Assembly: GCF_000482865.1 (NCBI RefSeq)
Contig: NZ_AXWW01000071.1
Location: 1-34,655, forward strand
Source of the DNA: Actinokineospora inagensis DSM 44258
Lineage (GTDB): Bacteria > Actinomycetota > Actinomycetes > Mycobacteriales > Pseudonocardiaceae
DNA length: 34,655 nt
Reading direction: 5' to 3'
Shown here: positions 1-34,655 of the stretch, in pieces
Position numbering within the stretch: position 1 is the stretch's first letter
Layout: each line of letters opens with the position of its first letter
Translations under genes and position numbers: made by a program
Notes under the pieces: model-generated
Databases searched by the model: none
What the model was told of the DNA's origin: nothing
The model's input: the letters and a program-made list of their open reading frames with translations, nothing else

Positions 1-104
1 GCCTGGGTAAGGCTAAAAGGCGGGGCCACTGGAAAGCGTGGCCTTACCCGCCTGCCGGCTTAGGCCACCGCTCCCCCCAAACAAAACAACTTCACCACAA
101 CGGG
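1..104 (-). repeat. Nested palindromic repeat, copy A (truncated by window edge)
   Basis: This is 104 bases of a 146-bp element that is complete at 12298-12443 and 25685-25830, here in inverted orientation. The outer arm (75-104, reading CCCGTTGTGGTGAAGTTGTT on the minus strand) and the inner GGGTAAGGC / GCCTTACCC and GGCCAC / GTGGCC stems are present. The other outer arm lies before base 1. About 30 bases beyond the arm (105-135) also match the left flanks of the other two copies. It lies downstream of the ABC exporter operon that ends at 446. No transposase is seen. Confidence 0.9.
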
Positions 105-445
105 CGGTTGGGATCGGCGGCTTTCGAGGCGCGCGGGGCAGGTTCTGAGTGGTGCTTCACCACACGGAGTTTCTGGGCTGGCGGGGCCAGTCTTGTGTGG
201 TGGGTTGTCGCGTGGGTTTTTGGGGCTGGTGGGGCCGGTTCTGTGGTGGGTTGTTGGGCGGGGTTGTCTTGGCTGGCGGTGCAGTTGGCGGCGGTGCCTC
301 ATCACGTGGCGGTTGTCTTGGTTGGTGGTGGCAGGTGGTGGTTGTCGCGTGGTGGTGTTGTCGGGGTGCGGGGTGCGGGGTGCGGGGTGCGGGGTGCGGG
401 GGTGTTGCGGTGCCTCACCGCGCGAGGGGGTGTTGTGGTGTTGTG
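105..445. repeat. G/T-rich intergenic region with degenerate and heptad tandem repeats
   Basis: This noncoding stretch lies between repeat copy A and the exporter stop codon. It holds a small hairpin (GTGGTG ctt CACCAC, 149-163), two degenerate units of about 47 bp (about 169-215 and 216-262), and five exact tandem copies of GGGGTGC at 363-397. The plus strand is strongly G/T-rich. Open frames here translate to low-complexity sequence and are not credible genes. The G-runs could form quadruplexes on the plus strand; that is inference. Confidence 0.75.
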
Positions 446-11947: not shown

Positions 11948-12297
11948 ACCCAAATCCTGCGCCGTTCCGAGCCCCTCGCGGGACCTGCGACCGACTGAAC
12001 CCCACTGTCAACCGGTTGATGGACACCCCCGTCCCCCAACCGGCACCCCACCCCCACCGAGCCCGATAAACTCGGCCCCGAACAATGCAGCCCCCGAATC
12101 AACCCTAGCGACACGCCCCACTTGCGTTCGAGCCACGAGCAGCCCCCTGTGGACACCCCACCAGGTTGTGGACACCCCAACCATCGGCAGATTCAACCAA
12201 CCCCGCCAGCTCGCACCGCGCGCCCCGAAACCCCACCCCATATCGACGAAGGCCGCCAGCCCACCCCGCGCGCCTCGAAACCCGCCGATCCCAACCG
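11948..12297. other. Intergenic leader of the exporter/two-component operon, A/C-rich
   Basis: No credible gene is present. This region contains a 12-bp palindrome (12008-12019), a degenerate copy of the 20-bp CAGCCCCCGAATCCAGCCTA repeat (12088-12107), and two TGTGGACAC 9-mers (12148-12156 and 12167-12175). Near the right end lie diverged CCGCGCGCCTCGAAACCC-type units that also flank repeat copies A and C. Confidence 0.6.
12008..12019. promoter_or_regulatory. Palindromic operator candidate upstream of the exporter operon
   Basis: A perfect 12-bp palindrome, TCAACCGGTTGA, lies about 60 bp before the ATPase start. It is a plausible binding site for a dimeric regulator such as the operon's own response regulator, but no regulator is assigned. 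Confidence 0.4.
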
Positions 12298-12443
12298 CCC
12301 GTTGTGGTGAAGTTGTTTTGTTTGGGGGGAGCGGTGGCCTAAGCCGGCTGGCGGGTAAGGCCACGCTTTCCAGTGGCCCCGCCTTTTAGCCTTACCCAGG
12401 CTACCGCTAGGGGCCCCAAACAAAACAACTTCACCACAACGGG
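12298..12443 (+). repeat. Nested palindromic repeat, copy B (complete, 146 bp)
   Basis: The outer arms are perfect 30-bp inverted repeats (12298-12327 and 12414-12443), beginning CCCGTTGTGGTGAAGTTGTT. Inside these lie AGCGGTGGCC / GGCTACCGCT (9 of 10), then GGGTAAGGC / GCCTTACCC, then an inner GGCCAC (12359-12364) / GTGGCC (12373-12378) hairpin with an 8-base loop. About 35 bases on the left and 25 on the right are also shared with copy C. It lies 59 bases downstream of the citA stop (minus strand). It is non-coding, with no transposase. Confidence 0.93.
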
Positions 12444-12502
12444 CACCCCGCATTTATCTGGCGCAATCCAGCGGCGTCGTCGAAGGCGACAAGCAGTCCC
12501 CC

Positions 12503-13645
12503 TCAGAAATGCCCAATTTCCCCCCACCCCTCAACATCCTCCGGCTTACGCGCATCCGGCCCAACATACTTGGCAGAAGGCCGAATCACCCGCCCCGTCC
12601 GTTTCTGCTCCAGAATGTGCGCACACCACCCCGCCGTCCGGCCACAGGTAAACATCGCAGGCATCATATGCGCGGGCACCTCGGCGAAGTCAAGAATCAC
12701 CGCCGCCCAAAACTCGACATTCGTCTCGATAGCCCGATCAGGCCGCCGCTCGCGAAGTTCAGCCAGCGCGGCCTGCTCCAACGCCGCCGCCGCCGAAAAA
12801 CGGGCAGCGCCGAGCTTCTCGCACGTCCGCCGCAGCACCCGCGCACGCGGATCCTCCGCCCGATAAACCCGATGCCCAAATCCCATCAACCGATCCCCAC
12901 GATCGAGAATCCCCCGCACAACCCCCTGAGGATCGCCCGTGCGTTCCACCTCGGCGATCATCGGCAGAACTCGCGCAGGCGCCCCGCCGTGCAGCGGGCC
13001 CGACATGGCCCCGATCGCCCCGGACAGCGCGGCAGCCACGTCAGCCCCAGTAGAAGCGATCGCGCGAGCCGTAAACGTCGACGGGTTCATTCCGTGCTCA
13101 GCCGCAGTGACCCAATACGTGTCGATCGCGGCGATGTGCGCCGGATCCGGCTCACCACGCCACCGCGTCATGAACCGCTCCGTGATGGTCGAGCACTCGT
13201 CAATGCGCCGCTGCGGGATCGCGGGCTGGTGGATGCCCCGCGCCGACTGGGCCACATAGGACAGCGCCATGACCGAAGCGCGGGCCAACTGCTCCCGCGC
13301 TTCCTCGTCCGTGATGTCCAGCAGCGGCCGGTAGCCCCAGATCGGCGCGAGCATCGCCAGCCCGGCCTGCACGTCGACCCGCACGTCACCCGAGTGGACC
13401 GGGACGGGGAACGGCTCGGCGGGCGGCAGGCCGGGGCCGAAGCGGCCGTCGACCAGCAGGGCCCACACGTTGCCGAAGGTGACCCGGCCCGCCAGGTCCT
13501 CGATGTCCACGCCCCGGTAGCGCAGGGCGCCGCCGTCGCGGTCGGGTTCGGCGATGTCGGTGTGGAAGGCGATGACACCCTCCAGGCCCGGCCGGAACCC
13601 GTCGTCCGGGGACTCGGGCTTGCTGTCCTGCACCGCGTTGTGCAT
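12503..13645 (-). CDS. citA: Citrate synthase 2 (CitA-type)
   Basis: This 380-residue citrate synthase condenses acetyl-CoA and oxaloacetate. Catalytic-site histidines are in AAEHGMN (His184), SGPLHGG (His219) and GFGHRVY (His258). The usual catalytic Asp motif NVDFYSG reads NVEFWAA, with Glu311 in place of Asp; I recall the same Glu in mycobacterial CitA proteins. It is shorter than the hexameric GltA encoded at 22763, so the locus carries both paralogs. GGCGGAG precedes the ATG. It is divergent from pdxH. The 3' end is markedly G/T-rich on its coding strand compared with its 5' half. Confidence 0.94.
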   Translation of the reverse strand: MHNAVQDSKPESPDDGFRPGLEGVIAFHTDIAEPDRDGGALRYRGVDIEDLAGRVTFGNVWALLVDGRFGPGLPPAEPFPVPVHSGDVRVDVQAGLAMLAPIWGYRPLLDITDEEAREQLARASVMALSYVAQSARGIHQPAIPQRRIDECSTITERFMTRWRGEPDPAHIAAIDTYWVTAAEHGMNPSTFTARAIASTGADVAAALSGAIGAMSGPLHGGAPARVLPMIAEVERTGDPQGVVRGILDRGDRLMGFGHRVYRAEDPRARVLRRTCEKLGAARFSAAAALEQAALAELRERRPDRAIETNVEFWAAVILDFAEVPAHMMPAMFTCGRTAGWCAHILEQKRTGRVIRPSAKYVGPDARKPEDVEGWGEIGHF

Positions 13646-14680: not shown

Positions 14681-15985
14681 GTGAGCACTCAGACAGAGCG
14701 CCCCGCGCGCGCCAGCCGGGCCAGGGGAATCCTGGGGAAAGTCGTCATCGACACCCGGCCGCTGCGGATCCGCGACTACCGTCGCATGTGGGTGTCGACC
14801 GTCGTCACGGCGGTCGGCAGCCAGCTCACCGCCGTCGCCGTGCCCAAACAGGTCTACGACCTGACCGGGTCGTCCGGCTACGTCGGCCTGACCGGGGCGG
14901 TGGGGCTGGTCCCGCTGCTCGTGTTCGGCCTGTGGGGCGGTGCCATCGCCGACGCGGTGGACCGCCGCAAGGTCATGCTCTACAGCAACCTGGGTGTCGC
15001 GGTGACCTCCGGCCTGCTGTGGGCGCAGGCGTTCACGCAGATGCGCTCGGTGTGGGTGGTGCTGGTCCTGCTGGGACTGCAGCAGGCGTTCGTGGCGGTC
15101 AACATGCCCGCCCGCAGCGCCGCCGTCGCCCGGCTCGTCCCGCCGGAGCTCCTGCCGCCCGCGAACGCGCTGAGCTTCACCACGTTCACCTTCGGCATGG
15201 TGTTCGGCCCGCTGCTGGCCGGGGCGCTGATCCCGGTGCTCGGCCTGTCCACTTTGTACCTGATCGACACGGTCGCGCTGGTGGTCGCGTTCAGCTCGGT
15301 GTGGTTCCTGCCGCCCATCCCACCCGGTGAGAACGCCCGGCGCCAGGCGGGCATCTCCGCGATCGCCGACGGGTTCCGGTACCTGGCGCTGAAGAAGCTG
15401 CTGCTCGTGTCGTTCCTGGTGGACATCATCGCGATGGTCGCGGGCATGCCGCGCGCCCTGTTCCCGGAGATGGCCGAACGCACCTTCGGCGACCCGCCCG
15501 GCGGCGGCCCCGCCCTCGGCTGGCTCTACGCCGCCATCCCGATCGGCTCCGCCGTGTTCGGCCTGTTCTCCGGCGCGTTCGCCCGCATCCGCCGCCAAGG
15601 CGCCGTGATCGCCGTGTCGATCGTCGTCTGGGGCCTGGCCATGGCCGCCTTCGGCTTGACCAGCTCCATCCTGCTGGCCGCGCTGTTCCTCGGCCTCGGC
15701 GGCGGCGCCGACCTGATCAGCGCCGTCCACCGCAGCTCCATGCTGCAGACCGAGGCCACCGACGAGATGCGCGGCCGCATGCAGGGCGTCTTCACGGTGG
15801 TCGTCGCGGGCGGCCCCCGCATCGCCGACCTCGTGCACGGCTGGGGCGCCGCCATCTTCGGCACCGCCACCGCCGCGACCGTGGGCGGCATCCTGGTCGT
15901 CGTCCTGGTCATCGCCACCGTCGCCTGGCTTCCCGACTTCTGGCGCTTCCGGTTCACCCCGACCGAGGACCAGCCCGCCTCATGA
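14681..15985 (+). CDS. MFS exporter, EntS-like (siderophore exporter family)
   Basis: This 434-residue protein has 12 predicted membrane helices. Segments closely resemble E. coli enterobactin exporter EntS: LGWLYAAIPIGSAVFGLFSG, SMLQTEATDEMRGRMQGV, and a C-terminal WRFRFTP. The loop after helix 2 has the MFS motif GAIADAVDRRKVML. The start is a GTG at 14681 with no Shine-Dalgarno, directly behind an iron-box-like site, so the message may be leaderless. Export of a siderophore under iron control is inferred; no siderophore biosynthesis gene is in the window. The stop codon is the first base triplet of a 38-bp repeat. Confidence 0.85.
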   Translation: MSTQTERPARASRARGILGKVVIDTRPLRIRDYRRMWVSTVVTAVGSQLTAVAVPKQVYDLTGSSGYVGLTGAVGLVPLLVFGLWGGAIADAVDRRKVMLYSNLGVAVTSGLLWAQAFTQMRSVWVVLVLLGLQQAFVAVNMPARSAAVARLVPPELLPPANALSFTTFTFGMVFGPLLAGALIPVLGLSTLYLIDTVALVVAFSSVWFLPPIPPGENARRQAGISAIADGFRYLALKKLLLVSFLVDIIAMVAGMPRALFPEMAERTFGDPPGGGPALGWLYAAIPIGSAVFGLFSGAFARIRRQGAVIAVSIVVWGLAMAAFGLTSSILLAALFLGLGGGADLISAVHRSSMLQTEATDEMRGRMQGVFTVVVAGGPRIADLVHGWGAAIFGTATAATVGGILVVVLVIATVAWLPDFWRFRFTPTEDQPAS

Positions 15986-16020
15986 TCGTCCCGACCTGAG
16001 CAGCCCCCGAATCCAGCCTA
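15983..16020 (+). repeat. Stop-anchored repeat, copy 1
   Basis: This 38-bp repeat starts at the TGA stop codon of the MFS gene and ends with CAGCCCCCGAATCCAGCCTA. It matches the reverse complement of 16345-16382 at 36 of 38 positions. Confidence 0.9.
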
Positions 16021-16059
16021 CGATCCGCCACCGACCAACCCGGAATCCGCCGGATGCGT

Positions 16060-16287
16060 TGTGGATGGACCGCGAGGATGTGGACAACTGGAGCCGCACC
16101 GGCGTGACCCTGGGCCAGTTTCTTGATCGCCCGCCCTCGGCAGCCCCCGAATCCAGCCTAACGGTGGGTGTCGAGGGAAACCGGGGTCGGCGGCGGTCTG
16201 TGGACAAGCCGCAGGGATGTGGGTGGCTGAAAGTGTCGCCCGGGGCATAGCCGGAGGAATTGCGGGGATGTGGACGACCTATCCACA
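16060..16287. other. Cluster of DnaA-box-like 9-mers
   Basis: TGTGGACAA (reverse complement TTGTCCACA, the DnaA box favoured in high-GC actinomycetes) occurs exactly at 16079-16087 and 16199-16207. Near matches are TGTGGATGG (16060-16068), TGTGGACGA (16269-16277) and CTATCCACA (16279-16287). All lie in a noncoding region with no dnaA, dnaN or other origin gene nearby. DnaA binding is inferred. Confidence 0.5.
16124..16160 (+). repeat. Stop-anchored repeat family, copy 2 (internal)
   Basis: This is a 37-bp direct copy beginning TGATCG and ending CAGCCCCCGAATCCAGCCTA, with one base deleted and a few substitutions relative to copies 1 and 3. It is not at a recognisable gene end. Confidence 0.82.
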
Positions 16288-16303
16288 TCCCCGCAATTCC
16301 TCC
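16253..16303. repeat. Perfect 22-bp inverted repeat, 7-base loop
   Basis: The arms 16253-16274 and 16282-16303 are perfect reverse complements, starting GGAGGAATTGCGGGG and closing with TGTGGA / TCCACA next to the loop CGACCTA. There is no U-tract on either side. It could be a bidirectional terminator or a protein-binding cruciform. Confidence 0.9.
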
Positions 16304-16344
16304 ACCAGGAGCCGAAGGTTCCGATGTCGGTCGATGCCCGCCGG

Positions 16345-16382
16345 TAGGCTGGATTCGGGGGCTGCTCAGGGCGGAACGATCA
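16345..16382 (-). repeat. Stop-anchored repeat, copy 3
   Basis: Read on the minus strand, this 38-bp repeat begins with the TGA stop of the MBL-fold gene and ends CAGCCCCCGAATCCAGCCTA. It is inverted with respect to copy 1, so the pair brackets the whole convergent intergenic region from stop codon to stop codon. Confidence 0.9.
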
Positions 16383-24191: not shown

Positions 24192-25523
24192 GTGACTGAG
24201 TCCCCCTCGGTGGTCTGGTTCCGCCGCGATCTGCGCACCGGGGACAACCCCGTGCTGTCGGCAGCCGCGGAGCGGAGCCCACGAGCACTCGCCCTGTTCG
24301 TCCTGGACGACCGCCTGACCCACCCGTCCGGCGCCCCCCGCCTCGCCTTCCTGTACCGCTGCCTGCGCGACCTCGACCGCCAACTCACCGGCCGCCTGAT
24401 GGTCGTCCACGGCAACCCGGTTGATGTGGTCCCGCGCGTGGCCAAGGCCATCGGCGCCGGTTCCGTCCACGTCTCAGCCGACTACGCCCCCTACGGCCAC
24501 CAGCGCGACTCCGCCGTCGAACAAGCCCTCGACATCGACTTCGTCCGCACCGGCTCCCCCTACGCCGTCGCCCCCGGCCGCGTCCTCAAGTCCGATGGCA
24601 CCCCCTTCAAGGTCTTCACCCCCTTCAGCCGCGCGTGGTCGGCTCACGGCTGGCGCGCTCCCGCCGACACCTCAGCGTCCACACTGGACTGGGTCGACCC
24701 CGCGGACAAGAGCGGTGGCCCCCGCCGCATCCACATCCCCGCCGATCCCACCCTCACCGCGGAATTGCCCCCCGCAGGCGAAAAAGCCGCCCACAACGCG
24801 TGGCAGGACTTCGATTTCAAGTCCTACGACAGGGATCGAGACCGCCCCGACCTCGACGCCACCAGCCGCATGTCCCCGTACCTCCGGTGGGGCTGCATCC
24901 ACCCCCGCACCCTCCTCGCCGACCTCGACCACTCCGCCGGCGCCCACACGTACCAAACGGAACTGGCCTGGCGAGACTTCTACGCCGACGTCCTCTGGCA
25001 CAACCCGGACTCCGCCCGCGAGAACTACAACCCCAAGTTCAACGCCATGCCCCACGACACCGACGAGACCCTCTTCCAAGCCTGGTGCCAAGGCAAAACC
25101 GGCTACCCCATCGTCGACGCGGGCATGCGCCAACTCCTCGCGGAGGGTTGGATGCACAACCGAGTCCGCATGATCGTCGCCAGCTTCCTGGTCAAAGACC
25201 TCCACCTCCCCTGGTGGACCGGCGCCCGCCACTTCATGCGCCACCTGGTCGACGGCGACCTGGCCTCCAACCAACACGGCTGGCAATGGACCGCAGGCAC
25301 CGGCACCGACGCCGCCCCCTACTTCCGCGTCTTCAACCCCACCACCCAAGCCCACAAATTCGACCCCACCGGCACCTACATCAGACGGTACGTCCCAGAA
25401 CTACGAAACACCCCCGACAAAAACGTCCACGCCCCAACAGGCGTCCCCAACTACCCGCCCCCCATCGTCGACCACGCCCACGAACGCCAAGTAGCCCTAG
25501 ACCGCTACGGAAAAATCAAATAG
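24192..25523 (+). CDS. phrB: Deoxyribodipyrimidine photolyase
   Basis: This 443-residue photolyase of the cryptochrome/photolyase family uses FADH- and blue light to split pyrimidine dimers. The N-terminal Rossmann antenna domain starts SVVWFRRDLRTGDNP. The FAD and DNA-binding C-terminal domain has WRDFYADVLWH, GYPIVDAGMRQL, WMHNRVRMIVASFLVKDLH, DGDLASNQHGWQW and FRVFNPTTQ. I chose the GTG at 24192 because the family begins about three residues before SVVWFRRD. The 3' third is unusually A/C-rich compared with the 5' end, approaching repeat copy C. Confidence 0.95.
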   Translation: MTESPSVVWFRRDLRTGDNPVLSAAAERSPRALALFVLDDRLTHPSGAPRLAFLYRCLRDLDRQLTGRLMVVHGNPVDVVPRVAKAIGAGSVHVSADYAPYGHQRDSAVEQALDIDFVRTGSPYAVAPGRVLKSDGTPFKVFTPFSRAWSAHGWRAPADTSASTLDWVDPADKSGGPRRIHIPADPTLTAELPPAGEKAAHNAWQDFDFKSYDRDRDRPDLDATSRMSPYLRWGCIHPRTLLADLDHSAGAHTYQTELAWRDFYADVLWHNPDSARENYNPKFNAMPHDTDETLFQAWCQGKTGYPIVDAGMRQLLAEGWMHNRVRMIVASFLVKDLHLPWWTGARHFMRHLVDGDLASNQHGWQWTAGTGTDAAPYFRVFNPTTQAHKFDPTGTYIRRYVPELRNTPDKNVHAPTGVPNYPPPIVDHAHERQVALDRYGKIK

Positions 25524-25684
25524 AAACCAATCCCAGCGACGCCAACCCACTCCACCGCACCCCAAAAAAATCCAGCCCACATCGACAAAGGCCGCCAACC
25601 CGCCCCGCGCACCTCAAAACCCACCCCACATCGACGAAGCGCCACCCCCGCACCGCGCGCCTCGAAACCCGCCGATCCCAACCG
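25524..25684. repeat. A/C-rich flank of repeat copy C
   Basis: This is noncoding. It holds two or three diverged copies of a unit resembling CACATCGACGAAGGCCGCCA plus CCGCGCGCCTCGAAACCC. Similar units flank copy B (about 12215-12297), and one unit flanks copy A (105-135). No gene is seen. Confidence 0.65.
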
Positions 25685-25830
25685 CCCGTTGTGGTGGAGT
25701 TGTTTTGTTTGGGGGGAGCGGTGGCCTAAGCCGGCAGGCGGGTAAGGCCACGCTTTCCAGTGGCCCCGCCTTTTAGCCTTACCCAGGCTGCCGCTAGGGG
25801 CCCCAAACAAAACAACTTCACCACAACGGG
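25685..25830 (+). repeat. Nested palindromic repeat, copy C (complete, 146 bp)
   Basis: It has the same length and order of stems as copy B. The outer arms (25685-25714 and 25801-25830) are 29 of 30 complementary. It differs from copy B at a few internal bases (for example GGCAGG instead of GGCTGG, the form also found in copy A). It lies between the convergent photolyase and ABC permease genes. Confidence 0.93.
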
Positions 25831-25918
25831 CACCACCGCTTTAATCTGGCGCCAAAGGCCGGCGTCGCCGCCAGGCGACCAGGCCGAACCCCGAGGCGCA
25901 GCCGAGGCCCAGTGCCCC

Positions 25919-28970: not shown

Positions 28971-30623
28971 GTGACCACCACAGCCAGCACCACCGGGCAG
29001 ACCAGCAGCCAGCAGGCGGTCGCCTCGCTCGGCACCGACATCAAGGGCGTCAAGTCCGCCATCGACAGCGGCGACTGGCTCGCCGCGGGCATGTCCATCA
29101 CCAACACCGCGATGGACATCATCAACATCGCGGGCGACCCGCTCGGCGCGGCCGCCTCGGCCGGGTTCGGCTGGATCATCCAGCACATCAAGTTCCTGCG
29201 CGAGCCGTTCGACAAGCTGCTCGGCGACGCGAACTCGATCCTGAGCTCGGCCCAGGGCTGGACCAAGGCGGGCACCCAGTTGGTCCAGGCCGCCGACAAG
29301 TACCGCGACGCGGTGAAGTCGCAGACCTGCAACTGGCAGGGCGCCGCGAGCGACGCCTACCGGCGCACCGCGTCCACCCACGCCGACGGCCTCGACGCGC
29401 TCGCCGAGGTCAGCAAGGGCGTCGGCCAGGCGATCAGCGGCGCGGGCCAGTTGCTCGCCGACGTGCGCAAGACCGTGCTGGACTTCATCACCCAGTGCGT
29501 GCAGAAGGTCATCATGATCATCATCGAGGCGCTGGCCAAGTCCTGGCTGAGCTTCGGGGCCAGCATCGCCGAGGGCATCGCCCGGTCGGTCGCCCAGGCC
29601 GTGCAGACCGCGCAGAAGGTCGCGAGCAAGGTCCAGAAGTTCGTCTCCTCGCTGCAGAAGATCATGTCCACCGTCCAGAAGATCGTGAACCTGGCCAAGG
29701 CGGTCAAGCAGCTCTTGCAGACCCTCGGCGGCAAGGCCACCACCTCGCCGAGCGCGACCACCACCCAGGCCCCGGCCATCAACACCACCGGCATCGACGC
29801 GGCGTCCAACGCCCAGTACACCAACCCGAACAGCGTCACCGGGCCCACGTACACCCAGACCGCACCGCCGAACTACAGCTACAACCAGTACCAGCCCGGC
29901 GCGACCGGCAGCGGCCCCACGTACACCCAGAACCCGGTGCCCGCGTACAACGGCTACCAGCAGCCGTCGGGGAACGCGTCCGGCCTGCCGACGTACAGCC
30001 AGTCGTCGACCGTGCCGTCGTACACCGGCTACCAGCAGCCGACCGGCGGAACGTCCGGCCTGCCCACGTACGGCCAGACGTCGTCGGTGCCGTCGTACCC
30101 GGGGTACCAGCAGCCGACCGGCGGGACGACCGGTGTGCCGACGTACGGCCAGACCGGGGTACCCGGCCAGGTCTCGCAGGTGAAGCTGCCCAACGGTTCC
30201 ACCGCCACCACGCCGCTCGGCCCCAGCGGAGCGCCCCCGACCCCCGGCGCCCCGGCGTCCCTTGTGGACCGCGCCCGCTGGATCGGTGCCGCCGTGGAGA
30301 TCCTGATCGACCACGGCGTGGACCCGTCCAAGATCGACGCGGGTCAGATCGCCCAGATCATCGACCGCACCTCCGGCGGCAACCCGCACGCGATCGACAT
30401 GCAGGACCCCAACGCCGCCAACGGGTTCCCGCCCAAGGGCATCACCCAGATCACCGACCCGGTGTTCCAGCAGCACCAGGTTCCCGGCTACGACAACATC
30501 TGGGAGCCGGTCGACAACATGCTCGCGGGCGTGAAGTACTTCCTCGCCGAGTGGGGTTCGCTCGTCGTCGCCATGCAGACGGTGTTCGGGGGAGCGCAGC
30601 CCGGCCAGGTCACGCCGCAGTAG
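28971..30623 (+). CDS. WXG-type secreted protein with Tyr/Pro repeats and transglycosylase-like domain
   Basis: This 550-residue multidomain protein starts at a GTG. Residues 1-250 are helical and include a WXG turn (CNWQGAASDAY, Trp near 123). A low-complexity Thr/Pro/Tyr linker follows, with three ~25-residue repeats of the form PSYxGYQQPTGGTxGxPTYGQT (29940-30161). Residues ~430-540 resemble an SLT lytic transglycosylase: SGGNPHAIDMQDPNAANG, KGITQITDPVF, WEPVDNMLAGVKYF. The usual RESGGNP reads RTSGGNP, so the catalytic Glu is Thr467. There is no Sec signal; with the EspC-like gene upstream, type VII export is likely. It may bind peptidoglycan without cutting it. Confidence 0.82.
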   Translation: MTTTASTTGQTSSQQAVASLGTDIKGVKSAIDSGDWLAAGMSITNTAMDIINIAGDPLGAAASAGFGWIIQHIKFLREPFDKLLGDANSILSSAQGWTKAGTQLVQAADKYRDAVKSQTCNWQGAASDAYRRTASTHADGLDALAEVSKGVGQAISGAGQLLADVRKTVLDFITQCVQKVIMIIIEALAKSWLSFGASIAEGIARSVAQAVQTAQKVASKVQKFVSSLQKIMSTVQKIVNLAKAVKQLLQTLGGKATTSPSATTTQAPAINTTGIDAASNAQYTNPNSVTGPTYTQTAPPNYSYNQYQPGATGSGPTYTQNPVPAYNGYQQPSGNASGLPTYSQSSTVPSYTGYQQPTGGTSGLPTYGQTSSVPSYPGYQQPTGGTTGVPTYGQTGVPGQVSQVKLPNGSTATTPLGPSGAPPTPGAPASLVDRARWIGAAVEILIDHGVDPSKIDAGQIAQIIDRTSGGNPHAIDMQDPNAANGFPPKGITQITDPVFQQHQVPGYDNIWEPVDNMLAGVKYFLAEWGSLVVAMQTVFGGAQPGQVTPQ

Positions 30624-33189: not shown

Positions 33190-34655
33190 GTGAACGGTTC
33201 TGTGGACCACCTCGACCACCGGGTGCGCGGCGGCTGGACCCCGAGCGGGGCCGCCGACACGGGCCTGCCCGCGCACGCGAGCCGGTGGCTGGGTGCGCGG
33301 ACCGGGTTGACCCCCAGGGACACGCCGGTCGCCCCCGACTCCGGCTTGGCGGTGCCCGAGTCGGGACTGCCCGCCGCAGTGCGGTCCGTCCTTGCCGACA
33401 TTGTCGGCGTGGAGCACGTGCTGGTCGAGCGGGATGAGCGGTTGGGTCGAGCCGGTGGACTGTCCTACCTGGACCTGCTGGCCCGCCGCGGCGCCGGTGA
33501 GCTGCCCGTACCGGATGCCGTCGTCGTCCCGGCCGACCCCGAGCAAACCCGTAGGGTCGTGTTGGCCTGCGCGACCCATGACGTCGGAATCGTCCCGTTC
33601 GGTGGCGGAACGTCCGTTGTCGGCGGTGTCTCGGCCCGCCGCGGCGACAAGACCGCCGTGGTGGTCCTCGACCTCCACCGCCTCGACCGACTCGTCTCCG
33701 TCGACCCGGTCTCCCGACTCGCCGTGTTCCAGGCAGGTGTGGTCGCCCCCGACGCCGAGCGGATGTTGGCGGAACACGGCTTCACCCTCGGCCACGTCCC
33801 CCAGTCGTTCGAACGAGCCACCCTCGGCGGCTTCGCCGCCACCCGCTCCTCCGGTCAGGCCTCCGCGGGCTACGGCCGCTTCGAGGACATGGTCCAAGGC
33901 GTCCGCCTGGCCACCCCCCGCGGCGAATGGCGCCTAGGCGTCGCCCCGGCCTCCGCCGCAGGCCCCGACCTCCGTCAGCTCGTGGTCGGCAGCGAGGGCG
34001 CTTTCGGCGTGATCACCGAGGTGACCGTCCGAATCCGCCCCACCCCTACCCACCACCGCTACGAGGCCTTCATCGTCGACGGCTTCGCCGCGGGCGCCGA
34101 CCTGGTCCGCACCCTCGCCCAAAACGACGCCCTGGGCACCGTCACCCGCCTGTCCGACCCCGAGGAAACCGACCTGGCCCTGACCCTCACCGGCGGCTGG
34201 AAAACCGCCCTGGTCCGCGCCTACCTCAAGGCCCGCCGCATCACCACCCCCTGCCTCCTGATCATCGGCTGGGAAGCCCACTCCCGCACCGCCCTCAACT
34301 CCCGCCGCCGCACCACACTCAGCTTCCTCAGGACCAGCTCCCGCAAGCCCGGTCTCCTCAAGCCCAGCTTCCCCAAGTCCCACCTCCCCACCCACCTCGA
34401 CTTCTCCACCCACCACCTCCCCGGCGACGCCCGCATCCCCGACCATCCCGACTTCTCCGCTCACCATGCCCCCGACGATGCCCGTCTTCCCGACGATGCC
34501 CGTCTTCCCGACGATGCCCGTCTTCCCGACGATGCCCGTCTTCCCGACGATGCCCGTCTCCCCGACGATGCCCGTCTTCCCGACGATGCCCGTCTTCCCG
34601 ACGATGCCCGTCTTCCCGACGATGCCCGTCTTCCCGACGATGCCCGTCTTCCCGA
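33190..34655 (+). CDS. FAD-linked oxidase, alkyl-DHAP synthase-like (partial, 3' end beyond window)
   Basis: The frame is open from the GTG at 33190 to the window end (488 codons, no stop), so it is easily missed. It is a flavoenzyme of the FAD_binding_4 / alkyldihydroxyacetonephosphate synthase type: PDAVVVPADPEQ, the FAD loop PFGGGTSVVGG (from residue 136), QSFERATLGGFAATRSSGQ, GYGRFEDMVQG, and VVGSEGAFGVITEVTVRIRP. After LIIGWEA (about residue 357) the sequence becomes low-complexity, then ends in tandem PDDARL repeats from residue 428, where related proteins have a variable loop and continue to the C-terminal domain. The C-terminal domain is outside the window, so completeness cannot be judged. 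Confidence 0.85.
   Translation, partial: MNGSVDHLDHRVRGGWTPSGAADTGLPAHASRWLGARTGLTPRDTPVAPDSGLAVPESGLPAAVRSVLADIVGVEHVLVERDERLGRAGGLSYLDLLARRGAGELPVPDAVVVPADPEQTRRVVLACATHDVGIVPFGGGTSVVGGVSARRGDKTAVVVLDLHRLDRLVSVDPVSRLAVFQAGVVAPDAERMLAEHGFTLGHVPQSFERATLGGFAATRSSGQASAGYGRFEDMVQGVRLATPRGEWRLGVAPASAAGPDLRQLVVGSEGAFGVITEVTVRIRPTPTHHRYEAFIVDGFAAGADLVRTLAQNDALGTVTRLSDPEETDLALTLTGGWKTALVRAYLKARRITTPCLLIIGWEAHSRTALNSRRRTTLSFLRTSSRKPGLLKPSFPKSHLPTHLDFSTHHLPGDARIPDHPDFSAHHAPDDARLPDDARLPDDARLPDDARLPDDARLPDDARLPDDARLPDDARLPDDARLPDDARLP
34471..34655 (+). repeat. 18-bp coding minisatellite (PDDARL)n, at least 10 copies
   Basis: The unit CCCGACGATGCCCGTCTT is repeated without spacers ten times (34471-34650), with one T-to-C change in unit 5, and continues into an eleventh at the window edge. 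Each unit keeps the flavoenzyme frame and encodes Pro-Asp-Asp-Ala-Arg-Leu. Diverged precursors (PGDARIP, PDHPDFS) lie just upstream. There are no spacers, so this is not CRISPR. Confidence 0.95.

Follow-up and report, generated by a model that had tools for sequence, protein, structure and literature searches.

A possible family of structured RNA hairpins at gene ends in part of the Pseudonocardiaceae, evolving in concert within genomes

Results and Discussion

The genome of Actinokineospora inagensis DSM 44258 contains roughly 120–145 copies of a palindromic element, three of which lie in the 34,655-nt stretch of DNA under study (the window). It is close to an even possibility that these elements are a family of structured RNA hairpins at gene ends, under concerted evolution in part of the Pseudonocardiaceae and defined on one strand (+). 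Among the identities put forward in the original prediction, a structured RNA is the best supported, through paired changes in the stems, G·U pairs found mainly on one strand and conserved unpaired motifs. From these sequence features a cellular function may be inferred, in the formation or protection of RNA 3' ends.

Copies in the window and in the genome

Three copies were predicted in the window and all three are present. Two are complete, and the third, at 1–105, is inverted and truncated; the window is the whole of contig C63, which begins inside this copy, and the truncation is therefore due to the assembly. The complete copies are of equal length, as predicted, however this is 148 bp with 31 bp outer arms rather than 146 bp with 30 bp arms. 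The arms are 100% complementary in copy 2 (12297–12327 with 12414–12444) and 97% complementary in copy 3 (25684–25714 with 25801–25831). They are indeed A/T-rich, at 51.6% GC against 70.4% for the window, and the flanks are conserved more widely than had been stated, for about 45 bp on the left and 80 bp on the right. Folded as RNA, copy 2 reaches -107 kcal/mol, with z-scores of -10.7 on the + strand and -12.8 on the - strand (200 shuffles each). These are far below the shuffled sequences, thus the palindrome is not a chance occurrence. The features of the window are as follows.

1..105, - strand: copy 1, the remainder lost beyond the contig end (model R1, 68.6 bits, model positions 1–105, 3' end missing)
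12240..12296, + strand: left C-rich flank module of copy 2, last degenerate tandem unit of about 48 bp
12297..12444, + strand: complete copy 2, 148 bp (R1, 139.8 bits, E 4.8e-29; the copy belongs to the model's own alignment)
12330..12340, + strand: stem 2, 5' strand, partner 12398–12408 (predicted fold; the helix covaries in both alignments)
12340..12345, + strand: conserved UAAGC motif at the inner end of stem 2 (alignment A3)
12398..12408, + strand: stem 2, 3' strand (predicted fold)
12409..12413, + strand: conserved AGGGG bulge at the junction of stem 2 and the 3' arm (predicted fold and alignments)
12445..12496, + strand: right flank module of copy 2, with hairpin GTCGTC-GAA-GGCGAC at 12476–12490 (by eye)
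12503..13645, - strand: citrate synthase gene whose stop lies 58 bp from copy 2 (Pfam PF00285)
24192..25523, + strand: DNA photolyase gene, its 3' end ahead of copy 3 (Pfam PF00875, PF03441)
25580..25683, + strand: left flank of copy 3, made up of roughly two degenerate tandem units (by eye)
25684..25831, + strand: complete copy 3 (R1, 138.8 bits, E 7.7e-29; the copy belongs to the model's own alignment)
25832..25909, + strand: right flank module of copy 3, with hairpin GTCGCC-GCCA-GGCGAC at 25864–25879 (by eye)

The original prediction was open to failure if there were no further copies, or if the three were mere segmental duplications. The family survived this, since a core pattern has 122 matches in the 7.28-Mb draft genome of 97 contigs (60 and 62 on the two strands; none for the reversed-pattern control) and an arm pattern has 286 (143 on each strand; 0 and 1 in the control). 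The 66 copies that were fetched and readable whole, a set which excludes copies that contain N or do not have both arms, have a mean identity of 95.7% and a minimum of 88.8%.

The repeat extends into the flanks. Most copies share some 45 bp on the left, with degenerate tandem units of about 48 bp beyond, and the 80 bp or so on the right include a further small hairpin. In A. inagensis, C outnumbers G on the + strand of the left flank, with a mean skew of 0.45 regardless of the direction of the left gene (0.45 in 45 copies with this gene pointing in and 0.45 in 14 with it pointing away). It is C-rich on the + strand in 65 of the 66 A. inagensis elements and in 41 of 42 and 62 of 72 elements from relatives, where the flanks are common to the copies within one genome and different between genomes. 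Inverted pairs of elements also occur. Those of A. inagensis at L049 and L069 are joined by N and could be scaffolding artefacts; pairs free of N are present at L014 and in relatives. Relatives' pairs were seen in G009 (L197, L233, L234, L259), G002 (L222–L224) and G001 (L201, L238). Each of the four G009 pairs has one element from each of two subfamilies, about 131 bp apart, and resembles a compound unit.

Distribution among relatives

Of 15 congeners, 5 gave matches of about 70% identity in a plain DNA search; those in G005, G006, G011 and G015 span the full length, and that in G003 is restricted to the 3' arm. The same search gave no match in 45 further genomes. Two covariance models were used. 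A1 is based on 40 hand-picked sequences, being 9 of the 66 A. inagensis elements and 31 of 42 from relatives, and A3 on 40 sequences picked across several genera. Matches to A1 are present in 15 of 16 Actinokineospora genomes and 37 of 249 sampled Pseudonocardiaceae genomes. Matches to A3 are present in 55 of the 249, in 12 of 46 genera, with most of the genomes added by A3 being known from the model match alone; the 30 best loci of the A1 search were read. At most the best 8–12 candidates per genome were scored, so that copy counts for relatives are lower bounds. A search of 394 genomes across the class recovered A. inagensis and a single congener, together with three genomes that have one weak hit each (E 4.6e-7 to 3.2e-6), taken to be chance. 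Two loci with weaker scores and doubtful folds (L217, L219) were omitted from the analyses of context, end repeats and G·U pairs and from A3.

The element is 116–152 nt long in the copies read. There are no Rfam matches in the window at the gathering score, and a search of 13 loci at E values up to 1 gave one hit (E 0.64), which lies outside the element. Among the literature matches listed, no title or abstract opening names this element.

Fold, covariation and strand

The covariance modelling that the original prediction had named as a check gave compensatory changes beyond the shuffled control in both alignments. Both sides have changed with pairing kept in 23 of 43 pairs in A1 and in 28 of 30 in A3. 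None of 500 shuffles reached the observed value in four of five measures for A1, the exception being the number of pair types (83 of 500), nor in any of the five for A3. When partners were slid out of register, the proportion of paired cells fell from 96.2% (A1) and 92.0% (A3) to below 49%. Amid these changing stems three largely unpaired motifs persist in A3: UAAGCU in stem 2, CUUU after the inner hairpin, and AGGGGC (or AGAGGC) before the 3' arm.

In the outer arms of the 66 A. inagensis elements and 42 from relatives, G·U is present in 90 cells and A·C in 5. A second set of 71 distinct elements, reduced to 66 by the omission of 5 with weak pairing, has 81 G·U against 5 A·C, which makes 171 to 10 for both sets together. 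Counted as distinct genome-position states, the further 66 give 31 against 5 (binomial p 1.3e-5, uncorrected for relatedness). The asymmetry is weaker over all 30 consensus pairs of A3, which include the inner stem and distant genera, with 56 G·U, 24 A·C and 66 other mismatches. RNAalifold scores A3 at -32.8 on the + strand against -19.6 on the other. The orientation of relatives' elements was set by the model, and of 72 such elements 69 carry the AGGGG-type motif, which is independent of pairing, on the + strand within the 3' half, and 13 carry it on the other strand. Pairing therefore seems, from these sequences, to be kept mainly on one strand, as is expected of RNA or of one folded DNA strand. 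Part of the asymmetry could come from strand-specific mutation bias or from folded single-stranded DNA.

Recombination among copies and linkage of paired bases

Variants are shuffled among the copies within a genome. In the A. inagensis core, all four gametes occur at 66 of 91 pairs of variable sites (66 copies), and with the flanks included the four-gamete test fails for 1444 of 1868 site pairs (61 copies). With flanks, r2 declines with distance (rho -0.21), from 0.37 at 1–5 bp to about 0.05 at more than 40 bp. It is flat (rho 0.04) when the core is taken by itself, where the linked arms are far apart. Single reads span 5–15 bp, therefore shuffling at this scale is hard to attribute to short-read chimaeras.

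Against this background, partner bases of the arms remain linked. The partners 8/143, about 135 bp apart, have an r2 of 1.00 and 5/146 have 0.92. Linkage is nil (r2 0.00) for a site 9 bp off in the left flank and for another 5 bp off within the arm, and partial (0.59–0.76) between the arms and the closest sites of the right flank. Pair 13/138, where T faces either A or G in the 5' arm, is unlinked and has G·U in 25 of the 66 copies.

The same analysis was applied to two relatives. In G006, which is a single contig with 31 copies, the four-gamete test fails for 203 of 299 site pairs, and the partners 11/138 and 16/133 both have an r2 of 1.00; sites 11 and 16 are also fully linked with each other's partners, and the non-partner pair 16/110 has an r2 of 0.87. 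In G007 (11 copies) the test fails for 26 of 45 pairs, with r2 values of 1.00 for partners 17/127, 0.69 for partners 6/138 and 1.00 for the non-partner pair 7/117. Linked ends could also come from arm-to-arm copying, or from conversion tracts that replace only the middle of the element.

Gene context and shared positions

The original prediction placed each copy 59–340 bp downstream of the stop codon of a minus-strand gene. This holds in the window, at 340, 58 and 87 bp, and does not extend to the genome as a rule. Based on gene calls from a simple GC-frame heuristic, 79 A. inagensis copies were placed, and the 52 with both neighbouring genes called comprise 29 convergent, 12 co-directional sense, 9 co-directional antisense and 2 divergent contexts. 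For 107 of 114 elements from relatives these numbers are 58, 24, 14 and 11. The elements are thus located at gene 3' ends, mostly between convergent genes, and are rare in divergent spaces. There is a weak sense bias in the co-directional contexts.

A gene for an IclR-family regulator (Pfam), presumably NdgR-like, is present in all 16 genomes of the genus. In 10 of the 16 an element lies just downstream, always in one orientation, and the same ten genomes were recovered with the second model. When a tree was built from the gene and its upstream region, all ten carriers fell inside one supported group of twelve (99/99). Carriage requires three changes on the tree, a number as low being reached by 23 of 500 sets of shuffled labels, and is possibly the result of one gain and two losses. 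Of the 10 copies, 8 are nearer to a sampled genome-mate than to any orthologue, with 3–14 mates sampled per relative. The exceptions are G004 (0.71 to an orthologue against 0.68 to the best sampled mate) and G011, which is a tie.

The A. inagensis copy beside this gene (L303:2260–2410) has arms and an inner hairpin of the A. inagensis type together with a wholly different, yet paired, stem 2, and is read as a mosaic or a partly converted old copy. In G003 the region downstream of the IclR gene (L304) contains long arrays of AGAGGC and a AGAGGGCTGGAACC unit, at the position where ten other species carry the element.

Two other positions tell against simple inheritance. Among 11 Actinokineospora loci of the asparaginase gene, 5 have an element, which is inverted in A. 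inagensis relative to the other four. Downstream of the photolyase gene an element is found only in A. inagensis and G002 among 14 loci, at the same place and in the same orientation, and in G006 there is an element upstream of this gene. Some element positions therefore look old, with others turning over.

Candidate agents of movement

Searches for an agent that could have moved the element addressed the REP-like and MITE-like identities of the original prediction. The REP-like identity, with a Y1 (RAYT) transposase, was not borne out, since PF01797 is absent from A. inagensis and from 12 of the other 14 Actinokineospora genomes that carry the element. This domain is present in G007 and G014 and, among carriers in other genera, in at least G022. 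Membership of the REP/REPIN-RAYT system was rejected on this ground, Y1 being absent from 13 of 15 carriers, and on the size of the unit, at 148 bp with 31 bp arms against the 20–40 bp of a REP. Spread by a reverse transcriptase was also rejected; PF00078 is found in 3 of 16 genomes of the genus (G003, G007, G011) and is absent from 12 of 15 carriers, including A. inagensis. Likenesses to twister ribozymes and to integron attC sites were dropped by eye.

As in a MITE, there are terminal inverted arms of 31 bp and, because over 120 copies must once have spread, a MITE is kept as a possible origin. Duplications of 5 bp or more at the ends did not emerge in excess of the control, nor did a longer element with the same arms among the loci covered. 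Direct repeats of 5 bp at the ends are present in 4 of 72 elements against 8.6 in the control, and in 4 of 42 against 4.4. A match of 7–8 bp is found at one element of 72 (control 0.5–0.3). Matches of 4 bp do exceed the shuffled flanks, at 37 of 72 against 23.8 and 15 of 42 against 11.9, where the end of the insert is uncertain and the flanks are shared within species.

Among the 100 of the 286 A. inagensis arm places that were listed, most arms are paired about 107 bp apart and no longer element bounded by these arms was seen. Nor did a longer autonomous relative turn up at seven A. inagensis loci with unpaired or widely set arms, which were explained by gaps, a mutated mate, truncation or an inserted transposase gene. 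There are assembly gaps at L032, L046, L261 and L263, the mate is present at L047, and L262 is a truncated copy. Beyond the gap of L261 there is a transposase-like frame (by eye). The copy at L264:2500–3063 (contig C10) has a DDE transposase gene (PF01609) inserted into stem 2, at CCTAAG, and its far side lies beyond the contig end.

Proposed mechanism and alternative explanations

Short-tract gene conversion would homogenise the copies inside each genome, and selection on the transcript would keep the two arms complementary. The element would be included in the 3' portion of adjacent mRNAs or transcribed in the space separating convergent genes. The long duplex, following a C-rich strand, may then set RNA 3' ends by blocking read-through and exonucleases, by providing a cleavage site for RNase III, or by both, and the conserved bulges may be recognised by a putative factor acting in trans. 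A wider proposal, made more tentatively than the gene-end RNA family itself, is that this is a new class of structured RNA. The more than 100 gene-end copies of a genome would be one recombining population, in which conversion spreads variants and pairing in the transcript holds partners together, so that lineages rewrite the family and yet keep its fold, size and some positions. A dedicated RNA-binding factor that reads UAAGCU and AGGGGC would have co-evolved with it.

It is rather unlikely that the element is instead a MITE-like DNA element that is still mobile and non-autonomous, with its fold recognised by a transposase in trans and its shared positions being hot spots for insertion at gene ends. 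Inverted arms at the termini, an almost constant size, the large number of copies, a sequence particular to each species and placement at gene ends would all fit such an element, as would the inversion of the A. inagensis asparaginase copy within the intergenic space used in relatives and the excess of four-base end matches in the set of 72. Yet 5 bp end repeats do not exceed the control, the arms listed are mostly paired at the standard spacing, with the odd loci that were read explained otherwise, and PF01797 and PF00078 are missing from 13 and 12, respectively, of the 15 carriers of the genus. A single orientation at all ten IclR loci is also unlikely under repeated insertion.

A site acting at the level of DNA, related to the nucleoid, gyrase or replication, is an improbable explanation, although dispersed palindromes at gene ends are known as DNA-level sites (REP/BIME) and offer a precedent. 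In such a site the palindrome would be kept by template-switch correction between the arms rather than by selection on RNA, and arm-to-arm copying alone would keep these both complementary and linked. The same copying should remove G·T as well, yet at pair 13/138 G·T is present in 25 of 66 copies against A·C in one, and the outer arms have the 171 to 10 excess. Tolerance of G·U therefore speaks for selection on the folded strand. Conservation of unpaired motifs while the stems are rewritten also argues against a DNA-level site. At least as improbable is a plain transcription terminator, perhaps bidirectional, that has been copied around the genome. Consistent with a terminator are the strong hairpin, its frequent position between convergent genes, the C-rich + strand of the left flank and, in some copies, short runs of T4–T5 about 10 nt past the 3' arm (by eye). 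However, no run of T directly follows the arms in the copies read (by eye), and some 145 nt with loops conserved over genera exceeds what termination needs. A gene-end RNA hairpin family under concerted evolution is therefore preferred.

Comparison with known repeats

Gene conversion has reportedly been proposed for REPs (Higgins et al. 1988), and bcr1 is said, going by a title (Okstad 2004), to be limited to one species group and to have traits of a mobile element. In anatomy the present element is like YPAL, Correia/NEMIS, bcr1 and REPINs, with the defining features of REP/REPIN and MITE members found only in part. YPAL/RU-2 of Yersinia, at about 168 bp, is a similarly sized, intergenic, strongly folding dispersed palindrome in the portions of the accounts consulted (PMC2229807, PMC2267715). 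It differs in that target duplication is tabulated for it (PMC2229807, in part), with none of 5 bp or more above the control here. The fold kept across genera with rewritten sequence, and the shuffling of alleles, are absent from those descriptions as far as these excerpts go. REP/REPIN sequences are alike in high copy number, extragenic location mostly between convergent or unidirectional genes, inverted doublets and GT pairs in the stem, according to the excerpt of PMC3733652, and compensatory changes have been noted for REPs in the part seen of PMC3116915. They are shorter, at 20–40 bp against one unit of 116–152 nt here, and have a Y1 transposase and tags of GTAG or CGTC (PMC3733652, same excerpt). 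For bcr1 of the Bacillus cereus group, the excerpt of PMC2267715 describes a dispersed repeat of about 150 bp with a predicted consensus RNA structure. The Correia/NEMIS elements of Neisseria, of about 107 and 155 bp, form long stem-loop transcripts for which RNase III processing of adjacent mRNAs is proposed in the sections seen of PMC2229807. Their 24 bp terminal inverted repeats, TA termini and target duplication (PMC2229807, in part) set them apart, as such ends were not seen here.

The novelty seems to lie in the combination of a fold kept across genera with rewritten sequence, mainly on one strand, some inherited positions, and recombination that spares paired partners. If true, this would be bacterial concerted evolution in a dispersed repeat that is not ribosomal. 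The family would carry a built-in readout of selection, in that partner bases are linked across about 135 bp despite free recombination and the site that tolerates G·U is unlinked. The old question of whether gene-end palindromes are selfish DNA or working RNA would become directly testable. The results also point to a 3'-end element, with no Rfam family, that is shared within the Pseudonocardiaceae, many of which are antibiotic producers.

Other repeats in the window

Three other sets of repeats were noted in the window. An array of 18 bp units of the TCCCGACGATGCCCGTCT type occupies 34416–34649, almost to the contig end, within a long frame. Three tandem repeats of 75 bp, 68–80% alike, are located at 29937–30161 within the frame 28971–30623. 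Imperfect inverted repeats with GCAGCCCCCGAATCCAGCCTA are present at 15983–16382 and 12077–12107. Sequences like GCAGCCCCCGAATCCAGCCTA also occur near elements of relatives (L112, L114, L119) and between the members of one A. inagensis pair (L014), and these inverted repeats are possibly a second dispersed repeat.
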